Shown here piece by piece: positions 724 through 34,780 of a stretch of 36,821 nucleotides of DNA. The position numbers were made by a program, and so were the translations under genes. The notes beneath the pieces are model-generated. The model did not search any database and was not told the origin of the DNA. It saw only the letters and a list, made by a program, of their open reading frames with translations. Position 1 is the first letter of the stretch. Every line of letters starts with the position of its first letter. The DNA is from Candidatus Parvarchaeota archaeon (GTDB lineage Archaea; Nanobdellota; Nanobdellia; CSSed11-243R1). The stretch is from NCBI GenBank assembly GCA_015522785.1, contig WALP01000027.1, positions 1 through 36,821 on the forward strand, given 5' to 3'.

Positions 724-731
724 TTATAAAA
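724..731 (+). promoter_or_regulatory. TATA box of the kink-turn RNA
   Basis: TTATAAAA lies about 26 bp before the inferred start of the structured RNA at about 752. No open frame starts nearby on this strand, so this promoter supports independent transcription of the RNA. Confidence 0.5.
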
Positions 732-751
732 CTATGTAACTTAATCAATAA

Positions 752-891
752 CGGCAAGGCTTAGTCAAGTGGGCCGGTCTCTATATGAGGAGCTCGAGCA
801 GAGCTTCGCCTATGAGTATAGTTTACTCCCACTTGATTTTTGGCCCGCGAAGGTGCTGGCTTGACACGTGATAGCCGGATAGTTGCGGGCC
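752..891 (+). ncRNA. Structured RNA with two kink-turn hairpins (H/ACA-guide-like)
   Basis: Hairpin 1 closes with TCAAGTGGG (765-773) and CCCACTTGA (828-836). Above an internal loop comes a textbook kink-turn: CTATAT-GA-GG on one strand (781-790) and CC-TAT-GA-GTATAG on the other (809-821). Hairpin 2 closes with GGCCCGC (842-848) and GCGGGCC (885-891). It has an internal loop and an upper stem CTGGCT/AGCCGG capped by a kink-loop, T-GA-CACGT-GA-T (862-872). Two stems, each with an internal pocket and an L7Ae-type motif above it, is the layout of archaeal double-hairpin H/ACA pseudouridylation guides. I do not see an ACA box at the expected distance after either stem, so the class is not certain. 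The start is inferred from the TATA box at 724-731. Confidence 0.55.
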
Positions 892-979
892 ATCATAATC
901 ACCTTACCAAACTCATAATTAAATGCCAATTGGCGAGATCATCATAATCACTTAATCACCAATGAATTGGGGTATAAAT
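891..979 (+). promoter_or_regulatory. dnaG promoter region with repeats and palindromes
   Basis: TATAAAT at 973-979, preceded by purine-rich BRE-like sequence, is the likely dnaG promoter, giving a leader of about 37 nt. Upstream lie a 12-bp direct repeat CATCATAATCAC (891-902 and 940-951), a perfect palindrome GCCAATTGGC (925-934) and a related inverted repeat CCAAT-GA-ATTGG (959-970) that ends 2 bp before the TATA box. The two palindromes share CCAAT/ATTGG halves, as expected for a regulator site. The bound protein is unknown. Confidence 0.5.
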
Positions 980-1037
980 GCCCAACTAGGTAAGCAAGTA
1001 GCTATTTCTCGTCTTTGGCTAAAAGGAGGCGAACTTT

Positions 1038-2575: not shown

Positions 2576-2626
2576 CTTCTTTTTCCGTGCACGCTTTTTC
2601 CAAAAGGGTGCTAAGAAAGCTGCACC
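2576..2626 (-). repeat. tRNA-intron-like core element outside a tRNA
   Basis: Read on the minus strand, this stretch contains a hairpin CTTTT/AAAAG, the linker GCGTGCACGG and a second purine tract GAAAAAGAAG. This matches the core of the tRNA introns elsewhere in the window; the linker is identical to that of the tRNA-Ser anticodon intron. A GGTGC/GCACC hairpin lies beside it. It sits between the 3' end of the SRP RNA and the stop codon of the convergent hydrolase gene, so it would form part of that gene's 3' untranslated region. No tRNA surrounds it. Confidence 0.5.
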
Positions 2627-3315: not shown

Positions 3316-3355
3316 GGGTTTATTCATTCTATTGGATTATGCCGGGGTCGCCTAG

Positions 3356-3411
3356 CACCACCCTTTTCTTAAAAGAAAAGCGTGGACGGAAAAGAAGAGG
3401 GTGATGGGTTA
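3356..3411 (+). other. tRNA-Ser intron 1, D-loop 15/16 (56 nt)
   Basis: The central helix pairs exon GCCT (3350-3353) with GGGT (3406-3409) using two G-U pairs. The bulges AG^C and TA^T are cut to join G15 to T16. The core holds tract CTTTTCTT (3363-3370), its complement AAGAAAAG (3373-3380), linker CGTGGACG and mirror tract GAAAAGAA (3389-3396). ACCACCC can also pair with GGGTGAT to close the intron stem. Confidence 0.75.
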
Positions 3412-3435
3412 TCTGGTTATGGCGCTGGCCTGCTA

Positions 3436-3491
3436 GCACCCTTTCTTAGAAAGAAAGCGTGCACGGAAAGAAATTTCCGTGGGTCGTAGTC
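3436..3491 (+). other. tRNA-Ser intron 2, anticodon loop 37/38 (56 nt)
   Basis: This is the canonical archaeal intron site. The central helix pairs exon CTGC (3430-3433) with GTAG (3486-3489); the bulges TA^G and TC^A join A37 to A38. The core holds CTTTCTT (3441-3447), AAGAAAG (3451-3457), linker CGTGCACG (3458-3465) and mirror tract GAAAGAA (3466-3472). CACGGAAA also pairs with TTTCCGTG downstream, an alternative hairpin. Confidence 0.85.
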
Positions 3492-3523
3492 AGCCAGTTT
3501 CCTTCGGGATCCGTGAGTTCGAA

Positions 3524-3574
3524 AGAGCCTTTCTCTTGCGAAGAGAAACCCTCGGGAAAGAGAAGCTCCGATTT
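3524..3574 (+). other. tRNA-Ser intron 3, T-loop 59/60 (51 nt)
   Basis: Exon TTCG (3518-3521) faces CGAT (3569-3572), giving three pairs and a U-U mismatch. The bulges AA^A and TT^T restore the T-loop TTCGAAT. The inner stem is GAGC/GCTC. The core tracts are CTTTCTCTT (3529-3537), AAGAGAAA (3541-3548) and mirror GAAAGAGAA (3556-3564): all three differ from the other copies in a matching way. Confidence 0.75.
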
Positions 3575-3588
3575 TCTCACCCCCGGCG

Positions 3589-3597
3589 CTTTTTTTA
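3589..3597 (+). terminator. T-run terminator after tRNA-Ser
   Basis: A run of seven T residues starts 2 nt after the discriminator base, a typical archaeal intrinsic termination signal. Confidence 0.55.
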
Positions 3598-3633
3598 GAA
3601 AAATTAATAATCAACATTTTCATTAATATTCAC

Positions 3634-4242
3634 ATGTACATAGAAGAAATAGGAAATAGAAAATATTTTGCCGAAGTTATTGCGGATGACCTGCTTAAAA
3701 AATCTTTTCTAAAAATTTGGTGGAACAATAACGGCAAAGACATCTCGCTTGAACTTTACCCAGGGAATGGACTGGAGTATATTGTTGATAACTACACTGA
3801 AAGTGAAAGTATTAATGGTGTGTACAAACAAATGTTAAGCTCATTATCCGAAGTAGCAACAGGCATTAAAACAGGAATTGGGGTGTGGAAAGGCGGAAGG
3901 ATAAGGTTTTCATACTGGGTTAATGAAGAAGGCATATTCTTTGTTGATGAAAATGAAGATGAAGTTGAGAAGCTGACGATTAAAGATATTTTGTCGAGAC
4001 TAAATGGTGTGAAGCCGTTCAATTGGGAATTTGACACGTCGGGCATGAGTTTTATTGAGAAGTTTGCCTATGTGTTTAGTTCTCTTGACAAGAATCCGTG
4101 TCCGTTTATGAACAAGGATAAAATTTGTTTCGCTGATGGAGAACATTGCAATCACTACAGAAAATTTGTGTACTATGGGCACACCTGTCCGAGGTACGAA
4201 ACCGATTTTGAGCTTGAGAAAAAGCTTTTTGGTAAAGTTTAA
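3634..4242 (+). CDS. Unknown protein with a C-terminal four-cysteine motif
   Basis: A 202-residue soluble protein I cannot place in a family. The first 150 residues are mixed alpha/beta. The C-terminal 50 residues carry four cysteines: CPFMNKDKICFADGEHC, then HTCPRY a little further on. This pattern could bind zinc or an iron-sulfur cluster; that is inference only. The ATG at 3634 fits a leaderless transcript, since an AT-rich TATA-like element lies at about 3600-3610. It lies between tRNA-Ser and the next unknown gene, about 80 bp from the latter, which has its own promoter. Confidence 0.7.
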   Translation: MYIEEIGNRKYFAEVIADDLLKKSFLKIWWNNNGKDISLELYPGNGLEYIVDNYTESESINGVYKQMLSSLSEVATGIKTGIGVWKGGRIRFSYWVNEEGIFFVDENEDEVEKLTIKDILSRLNGVKPFNWEFDTSGMSFIEKFAYVFSSLDKNPCPFMNKDKICFADGEHCNHYRKFVYYGHTCPRYETDFELEKKLFGKV

Positions 4243-4323
4243 TGATTCAGTGTTCCGAATTGTATGTGGCGAAATATTTATAACTCTTTAGTCATTACTT
4301 TTTTTGAAATAGGGGTGATTGAT

Positions 4324-4947
4324 ATGGATTTTTTAGAAAAAGTAAATGGTATTGATAAATACAAATTATACACAGGTCCCCTTGAGGATGCCATTCACGC
4401 AATTAGAGCTGATGGGAGAACCCCAATGACTATTGAACAAATAGCACGCAAAAGACTTGAAGTTTATTCGAGTGGAGATGCCAATCATGATAAGGTTTGG
4501 TGGTGGAATGAATCACACTTTGGTGTGTATAACGGTGTTGCGTATTTTGAGGATAAGATTAAAGTTATAGATGGAGACACATTGCTTATGGCTGCTCTTG
4601 AGGGGAGAAAAAATGAATATTCCCTTATGATTAGCGAGGAATTGTATCATTCACTTGAAGGCGAGGAGTTCAAAAAATCAAAATCATACGATAGGAGAGA
4701 CAATTCTTTCTTAAAAGCATTGTTCGGTGATGTGTTTGATGAGTATAAGAAAGTGGCAGAGGATAGGTACATTGGTTTTAGAGGAGATAGATGTGTTTTG
4801 CCAACATTTAATGACTGCCTTAAATTTTGGAAGCCTAAAATACCTGAAGTGCGTGGACTAACAATATCTGGATTGGTGGATGTATCTACTATTTATACGA
4901 CATCTCCCCCAGGGGGGAATTTTGTTGGGGAAATAGCAAAAGAGTAA
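4324..4947 (+). CDS. Unknown 207-residue protein
   Basis: The start at 4324 is chosen because AGGGGTGAT stands 5-8 nt before it and a TATA element (ATATTTATAA, about 4274-4283) lies about 45 bp upstream; the in-frame ATG at 4264 lies before that promoter. The protein is soluble, with no signal peptide or membrane helix. Recognisable stretches such as DKVWWWNESHFGVYNGVAYF and DRYIGFRGDRCVLPTFNDC do not match a family I know. The hydrophilic central region is rich in Lys, Glu and Asp. It is monocistronic; the next gene is tRNA-Val(GAC). Confidence 0.65.
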   Translation: MDFLEKVNGIDKYKLYTGPLEDAIHAIRADGRTPMTIEQIARKRLEVYSSGDANHDKVWWWNESHFGVYNGVAYFEDKIKVIDGDTLLMAALEGRKNEYSLMISEELYHSLEGEEFKKSKSYDRRDNSFLKALFGDVFDEYKKVAEDRYIGFRGDRCVLPTFNDCLKFWKPKIPEVRGLTISGLVDVSTIYTTSPPGGNFVGEIAKE

Positions 4948-5034
4948 CAATCCCTTCCACAAAAGTTTAAAAATGATAATCTTACTTTTCTTTTCATGGG
5001 CCCGTGGCCTAGTGGCTATGGCGTCCGCTTGACG

Positions 5035-5082
5035 AAACCCTTTCTTCCAAGAAAGCATTTACGGAAAGAAGGGTGTTCAAAA
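5035..5082 (+). other. tRNA-Val(GAC) intron 1, anticodon loop 37/38 (48 nt)
   Basis: A full bulge-helix-bulge: exon TTGA (5029-5032) pairs with TCAA (5077-5080), with bulges CG^A and AA^T. Inside, CCTTTCTT can pair with AAGAAGGG to extend the stem. The core tracts are CTTTCTT (5040-5046), AAGAAAG (5049-5055) and mirror GAAAGAA (5064-5070), with linker CATTTACG. Confidence 0.9.
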
Positions 5083-5104
5083 TGCGGGAGATCCCCGGTT
5101 CGAA

Positions 5105-5194
5105 AGCAGCCTTTCTTTAGGAAAGAAAGCCTGCAGGGAAAGAAATTTCTTTTCCCTCAAGGCTTTTCTTTTTAAGAAAAGGCTTGCACGAAAG
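5105..5194 (+). other. tRNA-Val(GAC) intron 2, T-loop 59/60 (90 nt)
   Basis: Exon TTCG (5099-5102) pairs with CGAA (5189-5192); the bulges AA^A and AG^T restore TTCGAAT. The intron holds a first core (CTTTCTTT, AAAGAAAG, linker CCTGCAGG, mirror GAAAGAAA) and then a second hairpin CTTTTCTT/AAGAAAAG, so it looks like a double unit. Confidence 0.8.
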
Positions 5195-5247
5195 TCCGGG
5201 CGGGCCCATTTCTAAAGTTTTAAATATGTAACTCATTTTAATCTTAT

Positions 5248-28411: not shown

Positions 28412-28477
28412 GGGTTCGCTTGACTAACAACTAGTGATAGCGGGATAGACTAGCCTGGAGTGGTCGCCGGGCTCATA

Positions 28478-28524
28478 AAAGCCTTTCTTCCGAAGAAAGC
28501 CTTGGGAAAGAAGGGTTCAGGGAG
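28478..28524 (+). other. Initiator tRNA intron 1, anticodon loop 37/38 (47 nt)
   Basis: Exon CTCA (28472-28475) faces AGGG (28519-28522): three pairs and one mismatch. The bulges are TA^A and AG^A. The core tracts are CTTTCTT (28483-28489), AAGAAAG (28493-28499) and mirror GAAAGAA (28506-28512), with a shortened linker CCTTGG. Confidence 0.8.
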
Positions 28525-28546
28525 ACCCGGAGGTCGGTGGTTCAAA

Positions 28547-28614
28547 AGGCACTTTCTCTCTTTGAAAAGAGAGAACCTGCGCTAAGAGAGAAACTCTTGG
28601 CGGTGCTTTGAAAG
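28547..28614 (+). other. Initiator tRNA intron 2, T-loop 59/60 (68 nt)
   Basis: Exon TTCA (28541-28544) pairs with TGAA (28609-28612); the bulges AA^A and AG^T restore TTCAAAT. The interior is nearly identical to the T-loop intron of tRNA-Val(CAC) apart from a 41-nt insertion there. The tracts TTCTCTCTT and AAGAGAGAA (twice) give a symmetric version of the core. Confidence 0.85.
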
Positions 28615-28634
28615 TCCACCTCCCGCTATTTCTC

Positions 28635-33757: not shown

Positions 33758-33811
33758 TTTATCACCATAAAAGTATGAGTGCGGGAGGCAGGGTTTGAAC
33801 CTGCGTAGGGA

Positions 33812-33843
33812 ATGGTCACCAAGTGCCCAAAGGCACGTCAGCT
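33812..33843 (-). other. tRNA-Leu intron 3, variable arm (32 nt)
   Basis: GGTT (33849-33846) pairs with GACC (33817-33814), with bulges AG^A and AT^T. The interior closes with GTGCC-TTTG-GGCAC. Removal leaves a normal variable arm GGG-TTAGT-CCC. It lacks the pyrimidine/purine core of the others and is the shortest of the set. Confidence 0.75.
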
Positions 33844-33857
33844 CTAACCCACACGGT

Positions 33858-33905
33858 ATCCGCGGCCTTTCTTTTGGTTGAGCTTTTCTTCCAAAGAAAA
33901 GGTCA
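33858..33905 (-). other. tRNA-Leu intron 2, anticodon loop 37/38 (48 nt)
   Basis: This is at the canonical site with the usual length, but the central helix is weak: CTCA faces GCGG with only two good pairs. Inside, CCTTTTCTTTGG pairs with CCAAAAGAAAGG (one mismatch). The core tracts CTTTTCTT, AAGAAAAG and AAAAGAAA are present. Splicing here may need a relaxed motif. Confidence 0.7.
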
Positions 33906-33928
33906 CTTGAGCCGTGCCCGTTTGACCG

Positions 33929-34036
33929 CTCCGGCACTGCCCCTTTCTTTTCCCGAAAAGAAAGGTGTAAGTTGCCCCAAAGAAAAGGGCATCTTTCTTT
34001 CCGTACACGCTTTCTTTTTTTCAAAAGAAAGGGTGT
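33929..34036 (-). other. tRNA-Leu intron 1, D-loop 15/16 (108 nt)
   Basis: The palindrome CCGG of the exon (34042-34039) pairs with a second CCGG (33934-33931); the bulges are AG^A and AG^C. The intron is flanked by a 10-bp direct repeat AGTGCCGGAG (34046-34037 and 33938-33929), so the exact junction is ambiguous by sequence. It holds one full core (linker CGTGTACG) and then a second region with mirror-image pyrimidine tracts CTTTTCTTT and TTTCTTTTC beside an AAAAGAAAGG partner. Confidence 0.8.
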
Positions 34037-34097
34037 CTCCGGCACTCCCGCATATAGGAAACTTTGAAACTACACATTTTTAAATTTTTGTAAAGAA

Positions 34098-34472: not shown

Positions 34473-34527
34473 CCCATTAAACTAAATCATCCATATTTAA
34501 AAAAGCTTTCAAATGGGCCCGCCCGGA

Positions 34528-34634
34528 CTTCCATACACTGCCAAGAGTTTCTCTCTTAGCGCAGGTCGACGAGACTACGTCTCGACGCAAGCGACGAAGT
34601 CGCTCTGTCTCTCTTTTCAAAGAGAGAAAGTGCT
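34528..34634 (-). other. tRNA-Val(CAC) intron 2, T-loop 59/60 (107 nt)
   Basis: Exon TTCA (34640-34637) pairs with TGGA (34533-34530); the bulges AA^A and AG^T restore TTCAAAT. The intron is homologous to the T-loop intron of the initiator tRNA but has a 41-nt nested insertion (34567-34607) made of two hairpins, GCGAC-TTC-GTCGC and CGAGAC-GTA-GTCTCG. Confidence 0.85.
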
Positions 34635-34677
34635 TTTGAACCGGGGACCTCCACCGCGTGAGGGTGACGTCATACCA

Positions 34678-34725
34678 TTGTCCGCACCACCCCTTTACCA
34701 CCTTTCTTTTTAAAAAGGGCAGCGT
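34678..34725 (-). other. tRNA-Val(CAC) intron 1, D-loop 15/16 (48 nt)
   Basis: Exon GTCT (34731-34728) pairs with GGAC (34683-34680), with bulges AG^A and AA^T. The inner stem CGC/GCG follows directly. The core is degenerate: CCCTTTTT, AAAAAGAAAGG, then AAAGGGG. Removal gives the same D-loop start, TAGTGG, as in the intron-free D-loop of tRNA-Val(GAC), which supports the junction. Confidence 0.8.
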
Positions 34726-34780
34726 CTAGACCACGGGCCCACAGAAATTGAATAGAGAATTAAAAATAAAAAGGTTTGGA

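Follow-up and report, generated by a model that had tools for sequence, protein, structure and literature searches.

Results

Three-tract cores in the tRNA introns of an archaeal contig

What are the introns that interrupt the tRNA genes of this locus, and what keeps three short tracts in each intron core matched to one another? The window, by which we mean the whole stretch of 36,821 nucleotides that was analyzed, is a single contig of a 69%-complete, 579-kb archaeal MAG (Nanoarchaeota). Its Cdc48-type ATPase shares 92% identity with the protein of Nanoarchaeota archaeon AUK188 and ~65% with those of the next relatives. The window contains SRP RNA, ordinary archaeal genes, and five tRNA genes with introns (Table 1). 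An unannotated, structured-looking region with repeated ATCATAATCAC motifs lies upstream of a DnaG-like gene (positions 729 to 1010, forward strand) and had no Rfam match at the gathering score.

ARAGORN reported no tRNA in the unspliced window, and the five intron-bearing genes were also missed by Rfam. When spliced by hand, the Ser-GCT, Val-GAC, and initiator Met genes were recognized by ARAGORN, so removal of the introns restores the tRNA; the hand-spliced Leu and second Val (CAC-like) genes were not recognized. Many tRNA genes in the MAG carry one to three introns each, with a common core. The intron boundaries are exact only in part, most having been placed by hand. Automatic intron finding with BHB and ARAGORN was convincing for the Ser T intron alone, whose ends form a good BHB (central helix of 3/4 bp, inner stem GAGC:GCTC, outer T stem of 5 bp), and the other introns gave a relaxed BHB or no clear one. 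The tRNA splicing endonuclease (PF01974) was absent from the 69%-complete MAG and was found in the congeners G005 and G006; self-splicing introns in an endonuclease-less genome were dropped as an explanation, since these congeners encode the enzyme. An Rfam search of the window and 40 core loci returned no group I/II intron, ribozyme, riboswitch, or other RNA family at the cores.

A sequence-only reading of the locus had described a pyrimidine tract (Y), its reverse complement (R), and a mirror-image purine tract (R') in the intron cores, and all the cores that it quoted are present in the Ser D, Ser anticodon, Ser T, and Val anticodon introns. The layout is Y, a loop of 2 to 4 nt, R (the complement of Y), an 8-nt segment (J), and R'. 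The outer C and G that had been counted with the Ser T tracts lie outside the paired tract: the C belongs to a conserved C.C mismatch, and the G is that of J. A blind scan for 7-mers that have their reverse complement and, after it, their plain complement downstream matched essentially tRNA introns only, and shuffled windows gave 0.15 matches each. In the T intron of the Val(CAC)-like gene, R and J are separated by an insert of ~40 nt that is rich in hairpins.

Table 1. Positions of intron-bearing tRNA genes and three-tract cores in the window
Feature	Position	Strand	Tracts or basis
tRNA-Ser(GCT) gene; D-, anticodon-, and T-loop introns	3341..3588	+	Spliced exons, ARAGORN
Core 1 (Ser D)	3363..3396	+	Y CTTTTCTT 3363-3370; R AAGAAAAG 3373-3380; J CGTGGACG 3381-3388; R' GAAAAGAA 3389-3396
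Core 2 (Ser anticodon)	3441..3472	+	Y CTTTCTT 3441-3447; R AAGAAAG 3451-3457; J CGTGCACG 3458-3465; R' GAAAGAA 3466-3472
Core 3 (Ser T)	3530..3564	+	Y TTTCTCTT 3530-3537; R AAGAGAAA 3541-3548; J CCCTCGGG 3549-3556; R' AAAGAGAA 3557-3564
tRNA-Val(GAC) gene; anticodon and T introns	4998..5208	+	Spliced exons, ARAGORN
Core 4 (Val anticodon)	5040..5070	+	Y 5040-5046; R 5049-5055; J CATTTACG 5056-5063; R' 5064-5070
Core 5 (Val T, sense half of inverted pair)	5111..5145	+	Y 5111-5118; R 5122-5129; J 5130-5137; R' 5138-5145
Core 5b (Val T, inverted partner)	5147..5181	-	Y 5181-5174; R 5170-5163; J CCTTGAGG 5162-5155; R' 5154-5147
Initiator tRNA-Met gene; anticodon and T introns	28439..28628	+	Spliced exons, ARAGORN
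Core 6 (iMet anticodon)	28483..28512	+	Y, R, 6-nt J, R'
Core 7 (iMet T)	28554..28593	+	TTCTCTCTTT / AAAGAGAGAA / CCTGCGCT / AAGAGAGAAA
tRNA-Leu(CAA)-like gene with introns	33780..34051 (approximate boundaries)	-	Spliced form missed by ARAGORN
Core 8 (Leu D-arm intron)	33993..34031	-	R' mirrors R at 8/9 positions
Core 9 (Leu anticodon intron)	33869..33901	-	Class 2; third strand begins with C
tRNA-Val(CAC)-like gene; T intron core and degenerate D-arm core	34514..34740	-	Direct sequence reading; inferred anticodon
Non-tRNA core, antisense, immediately 3' of SRP RNA	2577..2609	-	CTTTT/AAAAG/CGTGCACG/GAAAA

The third tract mirrors the second across core copies

Copies of the core were found with two covariance models built from cores. 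From stretches of 17 related genomes (own genome included), we gathered, without using R', 223 hairpins that have a Y:R stem of 7 bp or more and a purine run after it. R' was the exact, full-length mirror of R in 127 of them, a frequency biased upward in absolute terms, as the scored stretches were chosen by models trained on cores; the permutations control for association alone. Swapping the downstream parts within a genome gave an expectation of 29.9 ± 4.5 exact mirrors (maximum, 42), and swapping within both genome and tract length gave 56.5 ± 4.9 (maximum, 70 in 300 trials). The core copies are related, and these counts therefore measure association and not independent events. The direct-repeat control reached 33 in the same set, and R' as a direct repeat of R through a copying error was rejected as the main cause, since the mirror far exceeds this control. 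The earlier claim that R' mirrors R, in the geometry of an antiparallel purine third strand, is thus borne out; R' does not repeat R.

The exact cores are also regular in their spacing: R and R' were separated by exactly 8 nt in 118/127, and loop 1 was 2 to 3 nt in all 127. Furthermore, among class 1 cores picked by J alone, R' had G opposite C at 204/210 positions and A opposite T at 689/700 positions. Cores selected by J complementarity followed the mirror rule at ~98 to 99% of bases, with wrong-strand hairpins set aside. In a second class of cores, the first base of R' is C and J is shorter, and the remainder of R' obeys the rule in 39 of 43.

The three tracts also differ together at orthologous sites. 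Among 33 sites shared with congeners, the Y tracts differ at 24, and at these sites a core's own R' was an exact match in 42 of 48 directions, and the R' of its ortholog in 13 of 48; its own R' was the better match in 29 directions, and the ortholog's was better in 2. At one site, for example, CTTTTCTC/GAGAAAAG/(C)AAAAGAG in one genome stands against CTTTCTTC/GAAGAAAG/GAAAGAAG in the other. Such concerted change may have come about step by step, through compensation, or at once, when another copy took over the site by conversion or transposition; whichever the route, the unit that persists is the whole three-tract set. The joint variation first noticed in two of the Ser introns therefore holds for sequence and length alike, in comparisons within a genome, across genomes, and at orthologous sites. 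Drift of the third tract independently of the first two, named beforehand as the observation that would count against a three-tract structure, was looked for across genomic copies, and the outcome did not refute such a structure.

The J segment has a pairing code of its own

Pairing of J1 with J8 and of J2 with J7 served as the selection criteria for the J-chosen cores; J3 and J6, although outside these criteria, pair in 98%. In addition, J2 to J5 pair with the four bases 5' of Y (mean of 3.71 out of 4, compared with 1.94 and a maximum of 2.18 when permuted), and they do so through 31 different stems. The base next to Y and J1 form the C.C mismatch, and J8 is G in 107/112. Given that J2 and J3 are used by two mutually exclusive pairings, the element has at least two states. 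These must be an extended hairpin (P stem plus Y:R) and a J1-3:J6-8 turn that sets R and R' antiparallel. The second would be the natural geometry for R' lying on the Y:R duplex, and a triplex may be just one of the states.

Cores are dispersed and occur outside introns

With the covariance models, the own genome yielded ~60 to 70 credible core matches, and AUK188 about as many. Of 93 relatives of the class (own genome included), 25 matched at an E value of ≤0.001, comprising all six members of the family and several other families, whereas twelve genomes reached via ATPase loci, seven of them outgroup archaea, had at most 3 marginal matches each. Cores beyond the own family have different tracts and J sequences in an identical layout, and the mirror rule was also found in G007, G022, G028, G045, G093, and others. 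A search of viral contigs with four core patterns gave no match and no viral carrier.

The core had been described as an intron feature; the same core, obeying the same rule, is found outside introns and in both orientations. One lies directly after RNase P RNA (L228), others are downstream of 16S rRNA (L128 and L204), and still others follow stop codons or stand at mRNA ends. At two further loci (L129 and L202), cores appear by sequence reading to lie inside the RNase P RNA gene, with no confirming Rfam match there. By a simple motif test in G000 and G001, all tRNA-associated single cores are sense, and antisense cores at tRNAs occur only as the second half of inverted pairs; non-tRNA cores have both orientations.

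Among G000, G005, and G006, copies at gene ends are also present or absent and can have swapped orientation. The junction that precedes a glyA-like gene carries no core in G005, a single core in G000, and an inverted pair in G006. At the start of ThrRS, G000 and G005 have a duplicated gene start and a core, and G006 has an empty site. Direct repeats that range in length from 21 to 48 bp flank several copies, and in one case the event occurred again at the same base. No transposase or other mobilizing enzyme was identified, transposase having been looked for within the window. Dispersed copies that occur in both orientations and are present or absent between relatives indicate a mobile or recombining repeat, for which tRNA introns are one niche.

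Several of these loci have further peculiarities. At the ThrRS locus of the own genome (L131), the first 21 bp of the gene are duplicated upstream and followed by the core; G005 (L293) has the same arrangement with another core, and the G006 locus (L294) is empty. By eye, the duplicated start at L131, L241, L255, and L293 can be read through the core in an open frame that ends at the true start codon or overlaps it, in the manner of a leader ORF coupled to the gene. At L256 (G093), the gene start occurs three times in succession, the first two each with a core inserted after the same bases (GCGTTTGG), and the older core has a hairpin-rich insert of ~35 nt inside J. At L249 (G093), an inverted core pair follows a tRNA-Lys gene, and the final 22 bp of the tRNA are then repeated, an arrangement that resembles integration at a tRNA 3' end.

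A third-strand interaction as the proposed basis of the mirror rule

R' stands to Y as a parallel complement, a relation that is not made by ordinary copying and not rewarded by ordinary pairing, and a third-strand interaction would thus be the simplest reason for the mirror rule. According to Holder et al. (PMC4666352), RNA forms triplexes of the pyrimidine motif but not of the purine motif, and where one strand has a purine-motif sequence with A-A-T or G/C triads, the opposite strand is a candidate for the pyrimidine motif. The first point makes single-stranded DNA or the opposite strand a likelier place for the structure than the sense intron RNA. Of the earlier third-strand proposal, the mirror geometry stood, and the sense intron RNA is a poor candidate for its site, given the work cited in PMC4666352. 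The T-rich tracts would favor the opposite strand (T.A-T). Two points weigh against a triplex: the A-rich purine motif gives weak ones, and, on the other strand, C.G-C requires protonation.

The account that we favor, and hold to be moderately probable, is of a mobile or recombining DNA repeat defined by its structure, in which an intrastrand triplex on one strand would maintain the mirror rule and intron insertions would survive by splicing. The comparisons show that in this repeat of ~35 to 50 nt, defined by structure rather than by sequence, Y and R form a hairpin and R' mirrors R over the exact hairpin length at a fixed 8-nt spacing; J1-3 pairs with J6-8, and J2-5 with the four bases 5' of Y, around the conserved C.C mismatch facing G. 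On one strand, R' would lie antiparallel on the Y:R duplex (purine motif); alternatively, on the other strand, its complement would lie parallel (T.A-T/C.G-C). The triplex would most likely form in single-stranded DNA during replication, recombination, or transposition. An insertion into a tRNA gene would be tolerated since the host splices it out, and the stem needed for splicing would come from the 3' flank together with the bases 5' of Y.

A more specific identity is put forward tentatively. The core may be a DPANN mobile element with a three-strand fold that would accept any C/T tract as long as R and R' follow, whose triplex, on one of the two strands, would be recognized for transposition or repair, and which would double as a spliceable tRNA intron. 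An element of this kind, if real, would explain the intron-rich tRNA genes of this lineage.

It has so far been an open question whether genomes ever select for intrastrand triplexes, because a known repeat such as TM_ECO, with its single fixed sequence, is unable to show covariation. Dozens of tract variants with a three-way match in sequence and length allow a comparative test and provide many natural substrates for biophysics. The covariation seen here would be an unusually direct comparative sign that a triplex-like structure matters in nature.

Alternative explanations of the matched tracts

One alternative, which we consider unlikely, is that the core is a Watson-Crick switch only, in which Y pairs either with R, closing the hairpin, or with R' and the 3' flank, forming the outer intron stem, and this choice of partner regulates or allows splicing. 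Such a switch had been proposed from the sequence, and predicted minimum-energy RNA folds do use Y:R' plus the flank in 4 of the 5 window introns. A core's own Y:R' duplex is also slightly better than permuted ones (-6.00 versus -5.31 kcal/mol), a difference so slight that antiparallel Y:R' pairing was rejected as the main driver of the rule; Y:R is on average stronger still (-6.44 versus -6.00). The switch leaves the mirror rule unexplained: it would be served best by a direct repeat (R' identical to R), yet asymmetric tracts gave 134 exact mirrors versus 32 direct repeats, and the rule also holds outside introns and in antisense. Within intron RNA, the predicted folds suggest that Y:R' plus the 3' flank is probably the outer stem used for splicing, and a Y/R' switch is possible there.

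We also regard as improbable a reading in which a protein, e.g., a transposase or chromatin protein on the hairpin and the adjacent single strand, reads the mirror strand with no third-strand interaction. The invariant C.C/G position and the J code could be protein contacts, and mobility implies an enzyme, but the base-by-base match of R' to a tract that is free in sequence and length is not easily explained in this way.

H-DNA, with only the R-J-R' homopurine mirror repeat of duplex DNA functional and the Y hairpin incidental, seems distinctly improbable. R-J-R' is a mirror repeat of the classical H-DNA type, and the genome has both strands. However, when we searched in reverse from R-J-R' and ignored Y, Y was present at 107 of 111 sites, and at 80 of those 107 the mirror run and the stem were equally long and ended at the same base; J, moreover, pairs with the bases 5' of Y.

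A hairpin alone, with a few low-complexity master copies spread recently and a third tract that matches by descent and composition, is very doubtful: the tracts are short and C/T-only, G001 and G005 have several near-identical T introns, and cores have clearly been copied around the genome, but the exact cores include 37 different tracts of 7 to 12 nt, cores extend over several genera and families, the swaps were controlled for genome and length, and the differences at orthologous sites are concerted.

Comparison with known repeats and introns

In Holder et al. 2015 (PMC4666352), the order Y, loop 1, R, loop 2, R' is that of a class II intrastrand triplex, with the TM_ECO/BoxC repeats of Escherichia coli as the case in point; earlier class II triplex-motif work is that of Hoyne and Maher (cited in PMC4666352). 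The cores have this order on one strand, with R' antiparallel to R. They resemble TM_ECO further in being dispersed, multicopy genomic repeats whose complementary strand is a pyrimidine-motif triplex candidate and in their tie to genome rearrangement. TM_ECO, however, is one G/C-rich sequence, CCCTCNCCC N3-6 GGGNGAGGG N3 GGGNGAGGG, with a 3-nt second loop, which the cores do not fit: their tracts are A/T-rich (T-rich Y with some C) and are not fixed in sequence, the three tracts covarying among copies. In the cores, loop 2 has 8 nt and a pairing code of its own that links it to the 5' flank; the elements occur in DPANN archaea, where many of them are tRNA introns. ITxF searches for loops of 1 to 6 nt, and Hoyne et al. 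allowed 0 to 10 nt (PMC4666352). With a loop 2 of 8 nt in 118/127, the cores fall outside the ITxF rule, which applies to both loops, and within the wider one, and the limit of 1 to 6 nt is a search setting, not a chemical limit. A literature search for triplex-type tRNA introns found none.

Like REP/BIME and MITE-type repeats, the cores are short, palindromic, and dispersed, often stand in inverted pairs and at gene ends, and are polymorphic between relatives; both dispersed copies and presence/absence polymorphism, the marks of MITE and REP elements, were found. They differ in their mirror third tract, J code, and use as tRNA introns, as well as in the variable length of their flanking repeats and in that no transposase was identified within the window.

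Multiple noncanonical archaeal BHB tRNA introns are known in Thermoproteales. The introns described here resemble archaeal BHB introns in their D-, anticodon-, and T-loop positions, in a BHB at least in the Ser T intron, and in the endonuclease of the congeners; they differ in having a mobile, structure-coded core that is also found outside introns. This suggests a source for the many noncanonical tRNA introns of some archaea, namely, a mobile repeat tolerated in tRNA genes through splicing.
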